A stretch of 64,000 bases of DNA from Phorcus lineatus (taxonomy: Eukaryota; Mollusca; Gastropoda; Trochida; Trochidae): contig OV121091.1 in assembly GCA_921293015.1 (NCBI GenBank), positions 10,755,755 through 10,819,754 on the forward strand. Reading direction: 5' to 3'. This document shows, one piece after another, positions 14,502-44,900 of this stretch. The translations under genes and the position numbers were made by a program. Under the pieces are notes generated by a model that saw only the letters and a list, made by a program, of their open reading frames with translations, had not been told where the DNA came from and did no database searches. Each line of letters starts with the position of its first letter. The stretch's first letter is position 1.

Positions 14502-14537
<36 letters not shown>
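14502..14537. repeat. (AT)n microsatellite
   Basis: An uninterrupted AT dinucleotide run of 36 bp. Confidence 0.95.
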
Positions 14538-14538
<1 letters not shown>

Positions 14539-14539
<1 letters not shown>

Positions 14540-14594
14540 TATTGAATTAAAGAAGATTGATCCAGTGTATTGAATTAAAGAAGATTGATCCAGT
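14539..14594 (+). repeat. 28-bp perfect tandem duplication
   Basis: A 28-bp unit beginning 'gtattgaattaaagaag' and ending 'gatccagt' occurs twice without a mismatch (14,539-14,566 and 14,567-14,594). It sits directly against the first AT run and 67 bp before a second one, which suggests replication slippage or break repair at an unstable site. Confidence 0.95.
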
Positions 14595-14656
14595 CAGAAC
14601 CATCCGATGTTTACTCTTTCTTACATATAACTTTCCTTCACGTGAGAAACCTATTC

Positions 14657-14661
<5 letters not shown>

Positions 14662-14695
<34 letters not shown>
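14662..14695. repeat. (TA)n microsatellite
   Basis: An uninterrupted TA dinucleotide run of about 34 bp, 67 bp after the end of the 28-bp duplication. Confidence 0.95.
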
Positions 14696-32039: not shown

Positions 32040-33265
32040 AAGTAAGCATGTCAGATTTTTTTGGAGACATAATAATTATAGGTATCGTCCTCAACACAAA
32101 TAAATCTTTAATGGCTTATAGTTTATCAAAAGGTTATAGCTATTTGTTTAAAATTTAAATTAACCATTAAATGATTTTACATACAAGTCAACTGCAAATG
32201 AATATATATATACAAGACGGTATAATGAATCATACAAAACAAACTTCCACTAAGAATTTCATGGTAAAACCAAACACTTGGAGATATTGACCTTCACACT
32301 AACAAGCAATTACGATTACATAAGATACCTTTAACTCTATGATCAACCCTATATCGTGTTGAAGAGATATGTTCATAATACGGGGAAACTGTAACCGGTC
32401 ATTGACCAGTATGAAGCTCAACAACAGGAAGAGTTCTATTTCTAACGAGGGTGTATATATCAAATTGAATGTTTCGCATGTCGTTATAGAAGGAATAAAT
32501 ATCATTCTAAAATTTATTGATGTGTGAGACTGCTATCCTAAGTCATTATAAGTTTTTCAGCAGAAGTTTGCAGAATGAGTGCTTGTAGAATTTGGTTGTG
32601 AAAAAAGTCGAGAAATTTGATCAGCTTCAAATAGCATGACGATGATTTACAAACTTCAGATCTGTTGACATTGTACAACTAATTAATTATTTTTCTGGAC
32701 TAAAGTTGTTACATATGTAAAAGCGAAAAATTCGCAATTCTTGAAAGGAACATTTTTCGGAAGGCAAGCACAATTTTCAAAACGATTTTATGGCTCTTAA
32801 CAAATAATGTTACATCAAACACCAATATTTATGGCAAATATTATCCAGCTGAAGCAACAGATTATTTTGCATTTAAGCCATTAACACAAATATAGATATT
32901 ATGTAATAACAGAAATATGTATTTCGATGTGCTGAAAGAACTCTAAATCTTAGTTTAGAGTTTTTACACAAACTGCATGCCTTTAAACATGTAGGCTTGT
33001 GTAAAGGCTGCTTGGCCATTGGGAATAACAACGGACATGTGTCACAAATGTGAAGCACTTAAAGACTTTTTCCTCGAGAAGCAGAACAGTTGTAATTTTG
33101 TGTACTCTCTAACTAATGGGTGAATTAAATTGTAAAATCGAAAACACGTGGTCTCGTCAATGATTATGTAATACATTGTCCTTAAAGTTGAATGGAAGTT
33201 GGAATCTTGTTACAAACTCCTCATCCGGTTACAAAAATAAATTTGGTTGGTGTTCTTTGACCTTT
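32040..33265. repeat. Older duplication, copy A
   Basis: This aligns in colinear order with 33,400-34,640. The anchors in order are 'taggtatcgtcctc' (32,079; 33,421), 'agaaggaata' with a following 'attctaaaa' (32,488; 34,025), 'taagtcattataa' (32,539; 34,077), 'cttaaagact' (33,058; 34,440) and 'aatcttgttacaaact' (33,202; 34,603). The copies are clearly diverged. Copy A contains a perfect 9-bp-stem hairpin at 32,939-32,962 that copy B lacks. There is no conserved open frame, so this is duplicated non-coding DNA. Confidence 0.75.
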
Positions 33266-33399
33266 TATCATTTTTAAATTTCCAAAATTTTTACAATGAA
33301 CTGCTTAGAATATTACTTTTATTTTAAGAATGTAGATTCATAACTATTGTGAATATATATCACACACTTTTACCATTTGGCGGGGAATATTTCAAACTC

Positions 33400-34640
33400 T
33401 GCTTTTTTGAGACATAGTGATAGGTATCGTCCTCGCATATATCAAATATTTAAAGACTATCAGAAAAATATGATAGCTAGGGCAAAAAACCATGATCATT
33501 GATAATTATATTTCCAAGGAAACTATAATTGAAAATATATGCACCTCAAGAATGTATTATGAACCTATACAAGGATCCTTTACGAGGGTAATTCAAAATA
33601 TTCGTAGAATAAACACGATGAATATTCTTCAATATCCACCTTACTCCCCAAATTGACACCATAGGATTTCTTTCTCTTCCCCAATCTGAAGAACTATTTA
33701 CGTGGACGTTTTTTTTGCTGATAATAACAGCCTGATTGCTGCCGTGGTCAGATTTCTTGAAATCTAGGATGCGGAGTTCTACAAGAATGGCATAACGACG
33801 CTGTCCAGAACATATCGCTGGTCCAAATGTTTTAATGTCAGTATAGAGACTATTTCGAAAATCAAAATGCGAAAAGAGATACTTTGATCTTGTTTTCTAT
33901 GTCATTCTACGAACCTTTTTATCTAACCTCGTAGCTACGAATATTGCGGCCAAACATATTATGACCCCGCACACTTACAAACAAATACATCAACTATCCA
34001 TTTCTACATCCATATGTCGGTTTAGAAGGAATACATATTATTCTAAAAGTCCAGTATTGTTTCAGAGTATTTTCTTAAGTCATTATAAACTTTTAAAAAG
34101 TGCAAAATGTGTGCTTGTGGAATATTGTTGTAAATACCAAAAGTCCCAAAATTTAATTCATTTCAGAGTTCTTTACAAATACTTTTACACCAATGACAGA
34201 TATGAAATATCTAATCCAGCAAAAAGTACAGCTGTCTTGCATTCAAGTCATTTACAAAAAAAATATATCTATAGAAGTTACAGACGCATGTAGGAAATAA
34301 CTCGAGATGGCGCAATATCTCTAAATCTTCTCTTTTAAACCTTTAAACAAACTGAATACCGTACAAATTGTTTGGGTAATGACTGCATTGCAACTGGGGG
34401 TAAGAAAGTTTATAGCCGTGTGTCACAGAAGTTTAGCGCTTAAAGACTATTTTCTTCGATTTCTTCGAAAACTAAGAAGCAACAGAGCTGACATTTTGTT
34501 ACTCTTTTGCTAATGGGGGTTTTTAAATTGTAGAATCGATGACGCCATGTTGTTTTCAACATAATGTTTAACACTTTCAACCTTTGAGTCCAAGAAAGAT
34601 GAAATCTTGTTACAAACTTCTCCGATTTTGGTGGTGTTCT
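33400..34640. repeat. Older duplication, copy B
   Basis: The partner of copy A. It carries a 353-bp mariner derivative that copy A lacks at the matching place, so the insertion came after the duplication or was lost from A. The 110-codon plus frame at 33,961-34,293 and the minus frames at 34,440-34,743 are not kept in copy A and have no recognisable domain. The tandem triplication begins about 40 bp after this copy ends. Confidence 0.75.
33581..33933 (+). mobile_element. Internally deleted mariner transposon
   Basis: The ends are imperfect inverted repeats: 'tacgagggtaattcaa' and 'atattcgtagaat' on the left, and the reverse complement of 'ttctacgaacc...taacctcgta' on the right. About 22 of 29 positions match. 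Both ends carry the TA target duplication. Inside is the C-terminal end of a mariner transposase in broken frames: PPYSP (33,636-33,650), DFFLFP (33,665-33,682), EFYKNGI (33,774-33,794), then a RWSKCFNV-like stretch (from about 33,810). A one-base loss and substitution just after PPYSP remove the position of the third catalytic Asp, and stops follow. Full mariners are about 1.3 kb, so roughly 0.9 kb including the N-terminal domain is missing. It is a dead, non-autonomous copy. Confidence 0.9.
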
Positions 34641-34682
34641 TAAAGTGCTGTGGAAAAATACATTGCCGAAGGCACAACTCAA

Positions 34683-36847
34683 ATCGTGTTATAGATGAAA
34701 TAATTATATTAAGACATATCATTATGAATTCAGAAGTTTGCATAATGAGGAATTATCTATTTTGATATATAAAAAAATATAACAAAGCCTTTATGCTCAT
34801 ATGTGCCGAAAAGCTGCAATATGTTACGGGGCTATTTTGAGCTTTATGATAGGGCTGGAGCACCTGAACTGTAGCTGTTTGCAACCAGGAATACACTTGT
34901 AATTTGACTCACTTTCATACTTTAGGCTATATGTGCATTATAACGGAATTTAAATTTTGAAATGCTAATCAGCTCATGACCGTTTCAAATAGTATTTTAA
35001 TGTATTTGTCTTTTTATATAAAGAATGCAAAAGCTGAATGACCTTCTGTGAATTAAGCACGTATGGTGAGACAAAAAGGTACAGTGAACAGTTAATGAGG
35101 ACATTTATTTGTGAAGTACCGAATGGCAAGGTTAAAAAGTCTATCAGTAATTAACGACATTAATTTTTTCGTGTTTGCAAAGCCAAAACAATTAATAAAA
35201 GGTTTTGGCCTCCCAACAAACTTTCACAAATGTACGACTGCATTCTTAGTTCAGTAAATATTTTCTGAACTAAAATAAGAGACATATTGGTTTTCGTGCG
35301 CTACAGAGGTTACAACGTTTCTCAGTGCAGTTTTATGTCACGAATGCCAAGTCTACTGATTGCCCTCTAGTAAAAAGTCAATGGAAATAGTCTGGGTCAC
35401 ATGAGGCCATGTCCAAGTGACTACAAGATAGTCTGTAGCCTCTTTAACATCGACAAATGGCCAATTTCCTCTAACTTTTTCATTTCCATTGAATCAAAGT
35501 ATTACAAACAACGAACATAGCTCAGATTTACATTTTCAAATGACTTCTTAGTTATAGTTGCTTCGAGAATCATCTGCCAGAAAAGGAATCTTACTCAAGT
35601 ATTCACTTTGATAACTAACAACATGCCATCAAATACTATTTTGGGTACATTTTCGCACATGAGTTAGAGGAAAAGTGTAAGGTGGGAAACACGTTTGTAT
35701 TTGTTTGTGATATTTATTTTCCCTCTTTTTTATAAAGATGAAATGACTCGTTTTTCAAAAAAATACGTCTATATTCCCCCTTTTTAGAACACTGATCCTT
35801 TTCAAGAGTTTATAGAGAAGATGATGTGTCTTGGGCCCTTTAACACATCAACCTTTTTTGTTGAAGAGTAAAATAAATAGTTCTTCAGGTGAAATTAATC
35901 ACCAATTTTGTCCAGTGTCAGTGCATTATACCAAGATGTATTGACAATAATATTTCTTAAAAATCAAATAAATCATATCATATTCTTTAAATCATGATGC
36001 ACGACGCAAAACAATTACATATATTATTATAGCTGTTAGGGGGTTTCTCCATTTTGACATGATTTCTTACAAAAATTATACTTCTATATTCTGACCTATC
36101 ACTCGCCTTGTTCAACAACCTTCCATTTCTACTCCTTACCACTTTATACACATAATCTTGACACAGGGATAACTTAAATCGCAATGTATAAGGTGTAGGA
36201 TTCCCTAACCGTAAGAAATACTGATGGAAGACACATCAACTAGAAATAGAAATCACTGAAACCTCAAAGTATCACGTTTTAGAGTTGATGTTTTTCTTTC
36301 TGTTTATGCTATAGAATCGTACTGAACTTGTTGAGGAATTGATTTCAAGACCAATAAAGTTACGTTTAACATTTTATCATCACTAAAAACAGTATTTAAG
36401 GGGTTATTATAATACACATATGATAAATTTTCTAGCATTATAAGTACGGCTAAAAATGCATTATTCAAGAAAATACATTAATAAATCCTGAAAACAAAAA
36501 TATAATGCATAAGATAATCAATCCATCAAAGAATATTAAACAGGAATGAGAACCTTTATATCTTTGATTATAGTGTAAGATGAAATAGAAAAACAATTTT
36601 AGAAATAAGGCATCTGACAAAAGTTTTACGGCAGTTTTCATTAACATTACACACAAGCATAAGTCAATTTCAATTGAGTTGTGATGTTGTGAGCAAAGGG
36701 TAGTTGTGAAAATGTAGATCTGGGTTTATTTGCCAAAGCCAAATCAAATTATTGTATCTACTCCGGAGGGTTGTTTGAAATCTTACTACAACAATGTAAT
36801 AATGTAATTGCATTGACCATTTTATCATATCCCTTAAAGGCAGGCTT
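34683..36847. repeat. 2,165-bp tandem unit, copy 1
   Basis: The first of three complete head-to-tail copies. The unit starts 'atcgtgttatagatg' and ends 'cttaaaggcaggctt'. It is AT-rich and mostly non-coding. It holds a perfect 9-bp-stem hairpin (35,246-35,273) and two minus-strand frames of 65 and 63 codons (35,987-36,184 and 36,465-36,656) without recognisable domains. No transposon ends flank the unit. Confidence 0.97.
36140..36204 (-). other. Possible 65-nt exon inside the tandem unit
   Basis: On the minus strand, an acceptor 'tttcttacggttag' ends just before 36,204 and a donor 'aaagtg|gtaagg' follows 36,140. The enclosed frame reads NPTPYTLRFKLSLCQDYVYK and is open on both sides (an open stretch of about 80 codons). 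Identical copies lie at 38,305-38,369 and 40,470-40,534. If real, an exon would be present three times. No homology is recognised, and the signals could be chance. Confidence 0.2.
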
Positions 36848-39012
36848 ATCGTGTTATAGATGAAATAATTATATTAAGACATATCATTATGAATTCAGAA
36901 GTTTGCATAATGAGGAATTATCTATTTTGATATATAAAAAAATATAACAAAGCCTTTATGCTCATATGTGCCGAAAAGCTGCAATATGTTACGGGGCTAT
37001 TTTGAGCTTTATGATAGGGCTGGAGCACCTGAACTGTAGCTGTTTGCAACCAGGAATACACTTGTAATTTGACTCACTTTCATACTTTAGGCTATATGTG
37101 CATTATAACGGAATTTAAATTTTGAAATGCTAATCAGCTCATGACCGTTTCAAATAGTATTTTAATGTATTTGTCTTTTTATATAAAGAATGCAAAAGCT
37201 GAATGACCTTCTGTGAATTAAGCACGTATGGTGAGACAAAAAGGTACAGTGAACAGTTAATGAGGACATTTATTTGTGAAGTACCGAATGGCAAGGTTAA
37301 AAAGTCTATCAGTAATTAACGACATTAATTTTTTCGTGTTTGCAAAGCCAAAACAATTAATAAAAGGTTTTGGCCTCCCAACAAACTTTCACAAATGTAC
37401 GACTGCATTCTTAGTTCAGTAAATATTTTCTGAACTAAAATAAGAGACATATTGGTTTTCGTGCGCTACAGAGGTTACAACGTTTCTCAGTGCAGTTTTA
37501 TGTCACGAATGCCAAGTCTACTGATTGCCCTCTAGTAAAAAGTCAATGGAAATAGTCTGGGTCACATGAGGCCATGTCCAAGTGACTACAAGATAGTCTG
37601 TAGCCTCTTTAACATCGACAAATGGCCAATTTCCTCTAACTTTTTCATTTCCATTGAATCAAAGTATTACAAACAACGAACATAGCTCAGATTTACATTT
37701 TCAAATGACTTCTTAGTTATAGTTGCTTCGAGAATCATCTGCCAGAAAAGGAATCTTACTCAAGTATTCACTTTGATAACTAACAACATGCCATCAAATA
37801 CTATTTTGGGTACATTTTCGCACATGAGTTAGAGGAAAAGTGTAAGGTGGGAAACACGTTTGTATTTGTTTGTGATATTTATTTTCCCTCTTTTTTATAA
37901 AGATGAAATGACTCGTTTTTCAAAAAAATACGTCTATATTCCCCCTTTTTAGAACACTGATCCTTTTCAAGAGTTTATAGAGAAGATGATGTGTCTTGGG
38001 CCCTTTAACACATCAACCTTTTTTGTTGAAGAGTAAAATAAATAGTTCTTCAGGTGAAATTAATCACCAATTTTGTCCAGTGTCAGTGCATTATACCAAG
38101 ATGTATTGACAATAATATTTCTTAAAAATCAAATAAATCATATCATATTCTTTAAATCATGATGCACGACGCAAAACAATTACATATATTATTATAGCTG
38201 TTAGGGGGTTTCTCCATTTTGACATGATTTCTTACAAAAATTATACTTCTATATTCTGACCTATCACTCGCCTTGTTCAACAACCTTCCATTTCTACTCC
38301 TTACCACTTTATACACATAATCTTGACACAGGGATAACTTAAATCGCAATGTATAAGGTGTAGGATTCCCTAACCGTAAGAAATACTGATGGAAGACACA
38401 TCAACTAGAAATAGAAATCACTGAAACCTCAAAGTATCACGTTTTAGAGTTGATGTTTTTCTTTCTGTTTATGCTATAGAATCGTACTGAACTTGTTGAG
38501 GAATTGATTTCAAGACCAATAAAGTTACGTTTAACATTTTATCATCACTAAAAACAGTATTTAAGGGGTTATTATAATACACATATGATAAATTTTCTAG
38601 CATTATAAGTACGGCTAAAAATGCATTATTCAAGAAAATACATTAATAAATCCTGAAAACAAAAATATAATGCATAAGATAATCAATCCATCAAAGAATA
38701 TTAAACAGGAATGAGAACCTTTATATCTTTGATTATAGTGTAAGATGAAATAGAAAAACAATTTTAGAAATAAGGCATCTGACAAAAGTTTTACGGCAGT
38801 TTTCATTAACATTACACACAAGCATAAGTCAATTTCAATTGAGTTGTGATGTTGTGAGCAAAGGGTAGTTGTGAAAATGTAGATCTGGGTTTATTTGCCA
38901 AAGCCAAATCAAATTATTGTATCTACTCCGGAGGGTTGTTTGAAATCTTACTACAACAATGTAATAATGTAATTGCATTGACCATTTTATCATATCCCTT
39001 AAAGGCAGGCTT
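36848..39012. repeat. 2,165-bp tandem unit, copy 2
   Basis: No difference from copy 1 was seen in the stretches compared by eye, and both minus-strand frames translate identically. The junction with copy 1 reads '...aggctt|atcgtg...'. Confidence 0.97.
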
Positions 39013-41177
39013 ATCGTGTTATAGATGAAATAATTATATTAAGACATATCATTATGAATTCAGAAGTTTGCATAATGAGGAATTATCTATTTTGATATAT
39101 AAAAAAATATAACAAAGCCTTTATGCTCATATGTGCCGAAAAGCTGCAATATGTTACGGGGCTATTTTGAGCTTTATGATAGGGCTGGAGCACCTGAACT
39201 GTAGCTGTTTGCAACCAGGAATACACTTGTAATTTGACTCACTTTCATACTTTAGGCTATATGTGCATTATAACGGAATTTAAATTTTGAAATGCTAATC
39301 AGCTCATGACCGTTTCAAATAGTATTTTAATGTATTTGTCTTTTTATATAAAGAATGCAAAAGCTGAATGACCTTCTGTGAATTAAGCACGTATGGTGAG
39401 ACAAAAAGGTACAGTGAACAGTTAATGAGGACATTTATTTGTGAAGTACCGAATGGCAAGGTTAAAAAGTCTATCAGTAATTAACGACATTAATTTTTTC
39501 GTGTTTGCAAAGCCAAAACAATTAATAAAAGGTTTTGGCCTCCCAACAAACTTTCACAAATGTACGACTGCATTCTTAGTTCAGTAAATATTTTCTGAAC
39601 TAAAATAAGAGACATATTGGTTTTCGTGCGCTACAGAGGTTACAACGTTTCTCAGTGCAGTTTTATGTCACGAATGCCAAGTCTACTGATTGCCCTCTAG
39701 TAAAAAGTCAATGGAAATAGTCTGGGTCACATGAGGCCATGTCCAAGTGACTACAAGATAGTCTGTAGCCTCTTTAACATCGACAAATGGCCAATTTCCT
39801 CTAACTTTTTCATTTCCATTGAATCAAAGTATTACAAACAACGAACATAGCTCAGATTTACATTTTCAAATGACTTCTTAGTTATAGTTGCTTCGAGAAT
39901 CATCTGCCAGAAAAGGAATCTTACTCAAGTATTCACTTTGATAACTAACAACATGCCATCAAATACTATTTTGGGTACATTTTCGCACATGAGTTAGAGG
40001 AAAAGTGTAAGGTGGGAAACACGTTTGTATTTGTTTGTGATATTTATTTTCCCTCTTTTTTATAAAGATGAAATGACTCGTTTTTCAAAAAAATACGTCT
40101 ATATTCCCCCTTTTTAGAACACTGATCCTTTTCAAGAGTTTATAGAGAAGATGATGTGTCTTGGGCCCTTTAACACATCAACCTTTTTTGTTGAAGAGTA
40201 AAATAAATAGTTCTTCAGGTGAAATTAATCACCAATTTTGTCCAGTGTCAGTGCATTATACCAAGATGTATTGACAATAATATTTCTTAAAAATCAAATA
40301 AATCATATCATATTCTTTAAATCATGATGCACGACGCAAAACAATTACATATATTATTATAGCTGTTAGGGGGTTTCTCCATTTTGACATGATTTCTTAC
40401 AAAAATTATACTTCTATATTCTGACCTATCACTCGCCTTGTTCAACAACCTTCCATTTCTACTCCTTACCACTTTATACACATAATCTTGACACAGGGAT
40501 AACTTAAATCGCAATGTATAAGGTGTAGGATTCCCTAACCGTAAGAAATACTGATGGAAGACACATCAACTAGAAATAGAAATCACTGAAACCTCAAAGT
40601 ATCACGTTTTAGAGTTGATGTTTTTCTTTCTGTTTATGCTATAGAATCGTACTGAACTTGTTGAGGAATTGATTTCAAGACCAATAAAGTTACGTTTAAC
40701 ATTTTATCATCACTAAAAACAGTATTTAAGGGGTTATTATAATACACATATGATAAATTTTCTAGCATTATAAGTACGGCTAAAAATGCATTATTCAAGA
40801 AAATACATTAATAAATCCTGAAAACAAAAATATAATGCATAAGATAATCAATCCATCAAAGAATATTAAACAGGAATGAGAACCTTTATATCTTTGATTA
40901 TAGTGTAAGATGAAATAGAAAAACAATTTTAGAAATAAGGCATCTGACAAAAGTTTTACGGCAGTTTTCATTAACATTACACACAAGCATAAGTCAATTT
41001 CAATTGAGTTGTGATGTTGTGAGCAAAGGGTAGTTGTGAAAATGTAGATCTGGGTTTATTTGCCAAAGCCAAATCAAATTATTGTATCTACTCCGGAGGG
41101 TTGTTTGAAATCTTACTACAACAATGTAATAATGTAATTGCATTGACCATTTTATCATATCCCTTAAAGGCAGGCTT
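39013..41177. repeat. 2,165-bp tandem unit, copy 3
   Basis: The last complete copy. It again appears identical and ends '...aggctt', followed by unique DNA starting 'gtccttt'. No partial fourth unit exists on either side. Confidence 0.97.
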
Positions 41178-41765
41178 GTCCTTTCCATCATCCAAACTTA
41201 GTAAATATAGTGATGAAATTTACACCCCCCTTAACCTCCCCTCTTCCAATAATCTATATGAATCAATATGTCCCAAGGAGCATTAGATTCTATCAAAGAT
41301 AATAAAGCAACTTTAATTACATTTATGTATATTGATGCATTGGCGATATGAGGTAATAGATTTCTTTAGTACAAATGAACTAGGATGGCTATTATATTTT
41401 CCTTTCAGAAACAATTCGCATCACTGTGAATTATTATTCTCACAGTCAACTTTATCTATAATATTTATAGTAGCCGATAAGTATGTAGTCTGTTTACGTA
41501 TCATTTTTATCTTTCAAAAACTTACACTGTAAATCAATACATTGACTTGATATCCGGAAAGTTTTCTGCCGTACGCTCTAGTTAAAATTAAAACTAATTT
41601 TCTTTATATGCAACATATCTATAAGTTTGTACTTGTTCCAAAAATAGATTAAATTTTCATTTCAAACTTCGTATCTTCTGGGCCTAGCTATCGAGAAGGA
41701 AATTATTCAGTCATCAGTAAAATCTATAACTTTTTGGAGGTTTTGATCAACATAATGTTTCAGTT
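41178..41765. other. Unique DNA between triplication and SINE
   Basis: Unique AT-rich DNA with a C-rich spot (41,224-41,240). The small frames here are not recognised. Confidence 0.4.
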
Positions 41766-41965
41766 GTGCCGATAACGGTGTTGCTAGTCTATCACTTCTA
41801 TAGCCCCGGGTTCGAATCCGCTGGTGGCACCAAACAATTTTAATCACGGCCTTGTACTGTGTTGTGTCCTTGGTCGAGGCGCTTCATCCACATTACACCC
41901 ACTCTACCCAGCTGTACAAATTGGTACCTGACCACTGGAAAGTATTTACCAATATGTTCGTGCAA
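41766..41965 (+). mobile_element. tRNA-derived SINE
   Basis: The head (41,766-41,830) is tRNA-like. A 5' 'gtgcc' pairs with 'ggcac' at 41,826-41,830, and a perfect RNA polymerase III B box 'ggttcgaatcc' lies at 41,809-41,819. The T stem is not intact and the head is shorter than a tRNA, so it is not a functional tRNA gene. The body that follows ('tgtgttgtgtccttggtcga', then 'acccagctgtacaaattgg' and 'tacctgacc') resembles the conserved central domain of SINEs spread through molluscs and other marine invertebrates. I cannot name the family with certainty. The 61-codon frame across it is a by-product. The 3' end is not sharply defined. Confidence 0.75.
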
Positions 41966-44900
41966 AGTGCTTAAAAGACAGCATGGAAATCAGTTCCTTC
42001 AGGGTAATATTCCAATTGTGCGCCTTGAGTATGCTCTGTCATGAGAAGATGCGGATACAGGAAATATATCCTTGTTGTAATGATCAAAATTAATGCCACT
42101 TAAATGAAGTAACAATTTATATCCATGCAAGGACTGAATTAAAATATATAAGGCGTTTGGGAACAATAAACTGTTTATATGATAAGTGTAAATTAAAGAA
42201 AGAAGTTTGTTTAACAAATGTTCATATTCTTTTTTAAATGATGTGTATTGGTGAGACCGAGTAACAACTGGTTGTGAAATTATTCTTGAAGGACTACAGG
42301 AACTATCATCGACAGCTACAACAAGGTCTTCAGAGTTTAGACTATCCCATCAGATGAACTTTCTGCACCGACTGCTGTAATTACATCTGTTCTCTTGAGA
42401 AAAGACGTCAATTATTTCCTCAATCAGAGACTTTGAAAGTAGAGTATCTGTCATAACCAGATCAATAACTTTAACAACATGTATAGACGGGAATAAACTG
42501 TATCCTGAATTATTATGAAACTTCACGAAATAAAACAGAACAATATAAAAGATTTTGAAAAAATAATTATCAAGGATGCATGTGATTATGAAAACCATAT
42601 AAAAATTATCATTATATTGAATACGGACAATCATGTGCTGTGACATGTGCGTTCATTACTTTAATAATATCTGTGACCTGATATATCGGGAAACTAATCA
42701 GAATGTGTTTTTTGTACTAATTGATATAATGCACAAATAAGTTGGATTATTCCATGAACGCTATGCAACTGAAGTTCTCATGCACTTAATTAAGGCACAT
42801 TGACAGTGTTGTCAGAAACCTTCATTAAGTGCAATTTACATTGTAACTAACATCTGGAATTTTCTCCATGACTTTTTAACAATACGTTACATGCACTTTT
42901 GATAAAATCGTATAAACGTGGTAAAAACAATATCGTTGCAAAATGCACATAGTTGCAACACACGTGTGAAGAAAACAAGAGACATTAAGTGTTTCATTTA
43001 GATTTTAAGATACCAAATGCTTCACAAAAAAACGCAAAACCCACAGCTTTCAATACACGTTTAGAGGTTTCAAACACTTCTAGAAAGACGTCAGGGCAAA
43101 GAGACCCAACAATATCTAATTTACATGACAGACGGTTGTAGCATACAAAGACTCCTAAATGCAATCAACAACAGCTTGCCATTTTAGTCACGATTACTAT
43201 TTCTTACTTGCTATTTGAGATTCAATGTCAAGTGAATGTTTTTATGCCAAAGAGTTAAAGGGACCCTCAAATGTTGGTCTGATATGAATTTATTCAAGGA
43301 TTATTTTGTAAGTAAAGCAAATAATTTTCACCTCTAAATTGATTGGGTGATAAAGCTCTGTCCATAGACAGTATGGACAGATTGTTATATCTATATATTT
43401 ATTGTCTTTTTTGATATTTCAGTGAACCATCTCAAATAATTTTTGTGAAAAAGAGTTAAAGCGAATCTGGATTGAAAAACAACAAACAAAGACCGATGAA
43501 ACATTAACTCTGCCACTTAGAACATATTATGAATTAATATATGGTATATTTTCAGTTATGTTTAAGGTAGTAAGGTGTTAGCAATCAATATTTTGCATAA
43601 TGATAAAGAAAAAACAAACAACAATGCTGGAAGGCAGTGCAAATGCAATTGCAAGTTGTGACGTGTTGACATTTTAAATGTATAAAGATAAGTGTATCCA
43701 TTGAACCTACATATTGGTTTTTGTGATGTTTCAATATAGATATCGACATTGATATCCTTGACTGTTAAATATAATAATACAGTATATGTAAGGGATACTT
43801 CTTTTGATTACAATATTACAATTGCTGAACTAGGTATCTAATCATTCTCCTAATTCATTCTAAAAGGTTCTTAAGTTTTTTAAGTAGCTATCATTTTAGT
43901 AACTTGCTCATAATGAAATAAAAGGCTTGACTGCATGTGATCGACTTTTACAATTCTCACGATAACCAATTAGTGACGGTAAAAGTATCTTATATTACAA
44001 ATTTACTTATATAAGCAGAAAGACCAATACATTACTTAAGTTGGTGGATGTTTCTGATAATCTTGTGAATTCATTTCTCATCTCTCGAACATGTATGTTG
44101 TCTCTTGGGGGAATAAACTTAGCAGTTTGCTAAGACCACTTAAAATGAAGAAATATGTGGCAGTTTTATCCAAAACTGTTGGACGAAGTTAAATCAAACA
44201 AGTTAAACTATATCTAATTCGTGTGAATAGGTGAATGAATATTTCAATTGTAAAGAGATCTTTTTGACGTTTCTGATGTACTGTGCAAACTATTACATGT
44301 GGAATAAAAATGATACAAGTGATGATAAAAAAGATACAAGATGATGATGGCGTAATACAAGTGACTGTTATGCTTCTCCAAAATCACAAGTAGCACACGA
44401 TGTATTTAATGTACTGTAGAATAAAGATTCCTGCTCACCATCACTTGCGGTTAAAACTGAAAAAGTATTTTTTAAAATAGGTATTGCAAGACATAAGAGA
44501 ATCAAGAATCTTGACAGATACATTAGGTGTTATTTTCCTCCAATTATATATTTATATTTCAATATGTATTTGTCGATTTTACCCTAATCTGTTCTCCGAG
44601 TCGAGTTTTCCAGCTAGACTTTAAGACAATGGATATACACATGAACAAAAGTAAAGGTAATACTTTAAAACAATGGTATCAGGTTTAGAGCATGCCACTG
44701 ATGGTCTTCCTCATTCGCGAGACTTGTAACCAACTTCCCCTCAGCAATTCAGATTCTGCATATTGAATGTTTAGAGGCGTCTGTATGTATAGCATTAGCA
44801 CTGATTATTGCCTCGTTGCAGTTGGCACATCGATAATTCTATTCCACTTTAAGAGATTGCTTCTCAATGCACACCGCTGTTGATTAAACAACAATCTCAG

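Follow-up and report, generated by a model that had tools for sequence, protein, structure and literature searches.

A three-copy array in the Phorcus lineatus genome

The window, a 64,000-nucleotide stretch of Phorcus lineatus DNA (C17:10755755-10819754), is AT-rich, with 32% G+C, and contains no N. It holds a tandem array at positions 34683-41177 of the window, or C17:10790437-10796931 on a 49-Mb contig of the 958-Mb genome. The array consists of three head-to-tail plus-strand copies of a 2,165-bp unit, at 34683-36847, 36848-39012 and 39013-41177, which were located both by self-comparison and by a genome search. Base-by-base comparison gave 0 mismatches and exactly 3.000 copies. The initial annotation had called three exact 2,165-bp units, with no difference seen where they were compared, and this was confirmed over the full length of the copies as one uninterrupted matching run of 4,330 bases. 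So long a run cannot plausibly be put down to chance. Tandem Repeats Finder, for which the longest period is 500, did not list the array.

Self-matches of at least 25 bp at a lag of 2,165 within the window were confined to 34683-39012, and beyond either array border the match extended by 0 bases. Since this run is exactly twice the period (4,330 bp = 2 × 2,165), there are exactly three units, joined without microhomology or inserted bases. The first copy-copy junction (36847/36848, within 36838-36858) is blunt and needs no inserted bases to explain it, and the junction at 39012/39013 repeats it. A genome search with a 200-bp junction query recovered both array junctions; each of the two outer borders gave a half-match, and no full junction was found outside the array (all 4 of 4 candidates scored). 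Abutting direct copies of at least 1 kb with high identity, here three at 100%, are what a recent tandem segmental duplication should show. Two small sequence features were also seen. A near-perfect 28-bp palindrome lies at 35246-35273, some 0.56 kb into the unit and away from the borders, and is repeated in copies 2 and 3. The 6-bp word AAGGCA occurs twice, 8 bp upstream of the left breakpoint and 5 bp short of the end of the unit, which we take to be chance.

We recognized no gene in the unit. Its longest stop-to-stop frame is 86 codons, and the window as a whole contains no open reading frame of at least 150 amino acids, no Rfam match at the gathering thresholds and no tRNA detectable with ARAGORN in its bacterial setting. 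Eight frames from the window were scanned against Pfam, and six of them, including the two longest unit frames (two of the eight, at E ≤ 0.1), had no match. One frame outside the array had a reverse transcriptase match below the curated cut-off, and one frame had a Peptidase_C39 match below the cut-off (E 0.016) that we took as chance.

Relatives of the unit and an inverted paralog

The genome that we searched comprises 957,807,699 bases in 74 contigs. One of these, C74, carries a COX1 match containing 13 internal TGA codons, as is expected of an animal mitochondrion from its genetic code. A search with the unit (best 40 of 206 candidates scored) returned at least 50 matches. Three of them, at 100% identity, were the array itself, and the other 47 matches listed were 66-85% identical and covered the unit only in part; none of the listed matches was a further near-identical or whole-unit copy. 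Inside the unit lies a decayed dispersed repeat of about 0.9 kb (unit 1172-2080, corresponding to 35854-36762, 38019-38927 and 40184-41092), diverged relatives of which were found on several other contigs. The unit is an arbitrarily bounded piece of old noncoding DNA that contains this repeat.

The initial annotation had described the surroundings as old and diverged. This was broadly borne out, in that with the array masked, seven repeat pairs (E ≤ 1e-4) were about 65-84% identical. Exact repeats elsewhere in the window are short only, an example being two 28-bp copies at 14539-14594; this tandem pair adjoins AT dinucleotide runs (14502-14695). Two short dispersed repeats lie close to the array. 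One, at 33619-33933, has at least 39 copies at 78-81% identity (best 40 of 755 candidates scored), and the other, at 41782-42092, has many copies genome-wide at about 71-78% identity (best 40 of 2025 candidates scored) and contains a tRNA-like B-box word. Adjoining the array on the left is an older, diverged tandem duplication at 32161-34622 (32161-33222 versus 33492-34622), about 65-73% identical where aligned.

An old paralogous segment lies 100-120 kb downstream on the same contig, in inverted orientation. Identity is about 65% along most of the segment and ranges over 65-86% between blocks. The segment carries the left flank (34372-34682), unit 1-934 and the right flank (41178-41819) once each and in that order. 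Both halves of 32161-34622 map to a single stretch of the paralog, C17:10909317-10910583. The locus has been duplicated more than once, 32161-34622 being a tandem pair in the window and single in the inverted paralog.

We aligned the locus, collapsed to one unit, with the paralog. The alignment ran from left-flank position 34372 through unit 934 in 1,349 columns at 65.5% identity (E 8e-123), with unit 1-934 (34683-35616) opposite the minus strand of C17:10908201-10909180 (upper end approximate). Beyond it, six right-flank matches between 41292 and 45943 keep the same order, and only 383 bp of the paralog separate the first aligned block from the second. The two sides of the left border also match the paralog separately: left flank 34372-34556 alone at 78.6% (E 1e-34) and unit 15-267 alone at 65% (E 5e-24), the interval between them being 140 bp in the window as against 157 bp in the paralog. 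These separate colinear matches at similar spacing indicate that the left flank and the unit were neighbors before the array arose, and that the sequence was present once. No reliable paralog counterpart was found by alignment for unit 935-2165 or for 41178-41291; the left border is closely bridged and the right border only bracketed. These stretches are unaligned partly because the paralog lacks the dispersed repeat. In a genome search with the left flank plus unit, the best 40 of 755 candidates scored comprised the array and 39 matches to the short dispersed repeat at 33619-33933, and the inverted paralog was not among the matches listed, an example of how weaker matches are hidden when only the best candidates are scored. 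From the alignments, the single-copy state appears to be ancestral. A paralog that once had several copies and lost them is unlikely.

Age and proposed origin of the array

With 0 differences in 3 × 2,165 sites, a star phylogeny sets an upper limit (95%) of 4.6e-4 substitutions per site for each lineage. If the rate is taken to be 3e-9 per generation, this bounds the age of the array at about 154,000 generations; rates of 1e-8 to 1e-9, likewise assumed, give bounds of 46,000-461,000 generations. Because copies without differences give so small a bound, the array would be far younger than the surrounding 65-84% identical repeats, unless it is being homogenized. The initial annotation had offered two options, an extremely recent amplification that is perhaps still variable in copy number, or a product of the assembler. 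Recency is supported by this difference between the identical copies and the repeats around them, and continuing variability would be plausible.

Judging from sequence, we consider it likely that noncoding chromosomal DNA without a recognizable gene underwent a tandem segmental duplication here, of an ordinary kind and very recently. In a first step, which we read from the junction, a non-homologous event, either end joining or replication-based template switching, would have fused the end of the 2,165-bp stretch bluntly to its own start to give two copies. In a second step, which we infer, unequal homologous exchange between the identical copies, on sister chromatids or homologues, would have added one more whole unit. 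Exchange of this kind enlarges an array by complete units and uses the same junction again. The three identical copies, the one junction sequence occurring twice and the single-copy arrangement of the paralog all support an origin in two steps. We considered and rejected a duplication mediated by flanking repeats: we found no homology across the array borders, and the older tandem duplication at 32161-34622 lies on one side only.

A human survey (PMC12350158) helps to place such an event. Among the duplications that it identified as insertions in 1,019 human genomes, 15,295 of 17,029 were tandem, and tandem duplication is therefore common as a kind. The array would be one ordinary case of kilobase-scale tandem duplication, a common kind of structural variant. 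The same source gives junction classes for deletions, not duplications: blunt junctions made up 9.2%, and 1-15 bp of microhomology 83.1%, of 30,449 unclassified human deletions without at least 50 bp of homology (PMC12350158). Blunt junctions are the rarer class there, and this counts a little against the array being the product of the most frequent kind of event.

A similar course has been proposed for the MYH3C cluster of stickleback, where, according to a preprint, a junction without long homology was followed by non-allelic homologous recombination (PMC12776057). As described there, that cluster resembles the array in its head-to-tail whole units, its one recurrent junction and the high similarity between its copies (PMC12776057). 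It differs in that the stickleback unit is about 17.6 kb and contains a gene, with 4 bp of perfect and 8 bp of imperfect microhomology at the junction and a copy number that is known to vary (PMC12776057). The unit of the array is 2.2 kb with no recognizable gene, its junction is blunt, and variation in its copy number is a prediction. If the array arose in the way that we propose, its copy number would be expected to vary between individuals.

We looked for comparable repeats in a 284-kb control comprising the window, eight stretches derived from matches (L009-L016), two neighbors (L028-L029) and 12 stretches (L030-L041) of 10 kb each, chosen from a random draw of 100. A lag between 100 and 5,000 bp was scored if it had at least 30 shared 20-mers. 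The array in the window was the only complete tandem repeat with a period of at least 1 kb, and none of the 12 random stretches contained a complete tandem duplication with a period of 1-5 kb, a sample too small to give a rate. Short-period arrays (about 135-580 bp) were also present in the control, as were separated direct repeats (293 bp at a distance of 1,323 in L041, pieces at 2,126-2,130 in L034 and 65 bp at 4,674 in L010). One of the short-period arrays, at 3448-5338 of L011, has a 145-bp unit, with units more alike at a four-unit (580-bp) spacing, and lies near a relative of the dispersed repeat inside the 2,165-bp unit. The control gives no sign of a high background rate in this genome, which counts against reading the array as an ordinary duplication.

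Alternative explanations and significance

The main rival, which we regard as unlikely but weightier than any other, is that the array is an assembly artefact, in which one real unit (or two) was multiplied by the assembler, by a gap filler or through error-bearing reads that were left uncollapsed. The perfect identity of all the copies is as this would predict. Against it, the window is free of N, and 11 contigs measure 45.7-79.4 Mb, suggesting long reads and scaffolding. At 6.5 kb, the array is also shorter than typical long reads, which counts against an artefact. In a study of three Vertebrate Genomes Project assemblies, false duplications persisted even in good assemblies, and most of them were on the same scaffold (22.2 of 24.1, 4.8 of 5.8 and 3.4 of 5.6 Mb; PMC9516828). 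A small share came from read errors, and incorrect gap filling was one named cause; the false duplications described there were, however, mainly diverged haplotype copies and mostly separated by gaps, whereas the copies of the array are identical and directly abutting (PMC9516828). On balance this evidence appears to favor a real array, without amounting to proof.

Concerted evolution, in which frequent gene conversion or unequal exchange keeps the copies of an older array alike, would fit both the identical copies and their one common junction. Homogenized arrays usually retain divergent or partial edge copies, however, and those at the edges of this array are whole and show no differences; the paralog, too, has no sign of an array. 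We therefore think concerted evolution very improbable. Satellite and macrosatellite arrays share head-to-tail repetition with the array. Satellite DNA has many tandem copies, usually in several arrays, whereas here there are only three copies at one locus, and no other array of the unit was among the matches listed in the genome search.

Least probable of all is a rolling-circle (Helitron-like) element, or an excised circle inserted as a concatemer, whose products look like head-to-tail whole units and with which the start of the unit, A then TC, agrees; it is largely refuted, because the unit ends in GGCTT where a Helitron ends in CTRR, no whole-unit copy elsewhere was among the matches listed (best 40 of 206 candidates scored), and the left flank and unit are neighbors in the paralog, so that nothing was inserted between them. 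Comparison of the two 60-bp ends of the unit turned up no inverted word longer than 6 bp, giving no terminal inverted repeat, and we found no target-site duplication, the flanks having only AACT in common, away from the borders. A mobile element, Helitron or other, was excluded by the ends, the colinear paralog and the lack of whole-unit copies among the matches. The earlier view that no mobile element explains the unit thus holds, on the evidence of its ends, the missing target-site duplication and the failure to find dispersed whole-unit relatives.

It is also very doubtful, though conceivable, that the unit contains a regulatory element, with extra copies recently under positive selection or their number affecting a neighboring gene. 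The array would then be a young dosage polymorphism in noncoding DNA, at a repeatedly duplicating locus, first as an old inverted duplication, then as an old tandem duplication and now as a triplication.

If the array is an artefact, it marks a local assembly fault. If, as we consider likely, it is a real and recent tandem duplication, it would otherwise be one more structural variant, and would offer a clean, young tandem triplication with a blunt junction and a nearby single-copy paralog, useful for dating and for copy-number assays.
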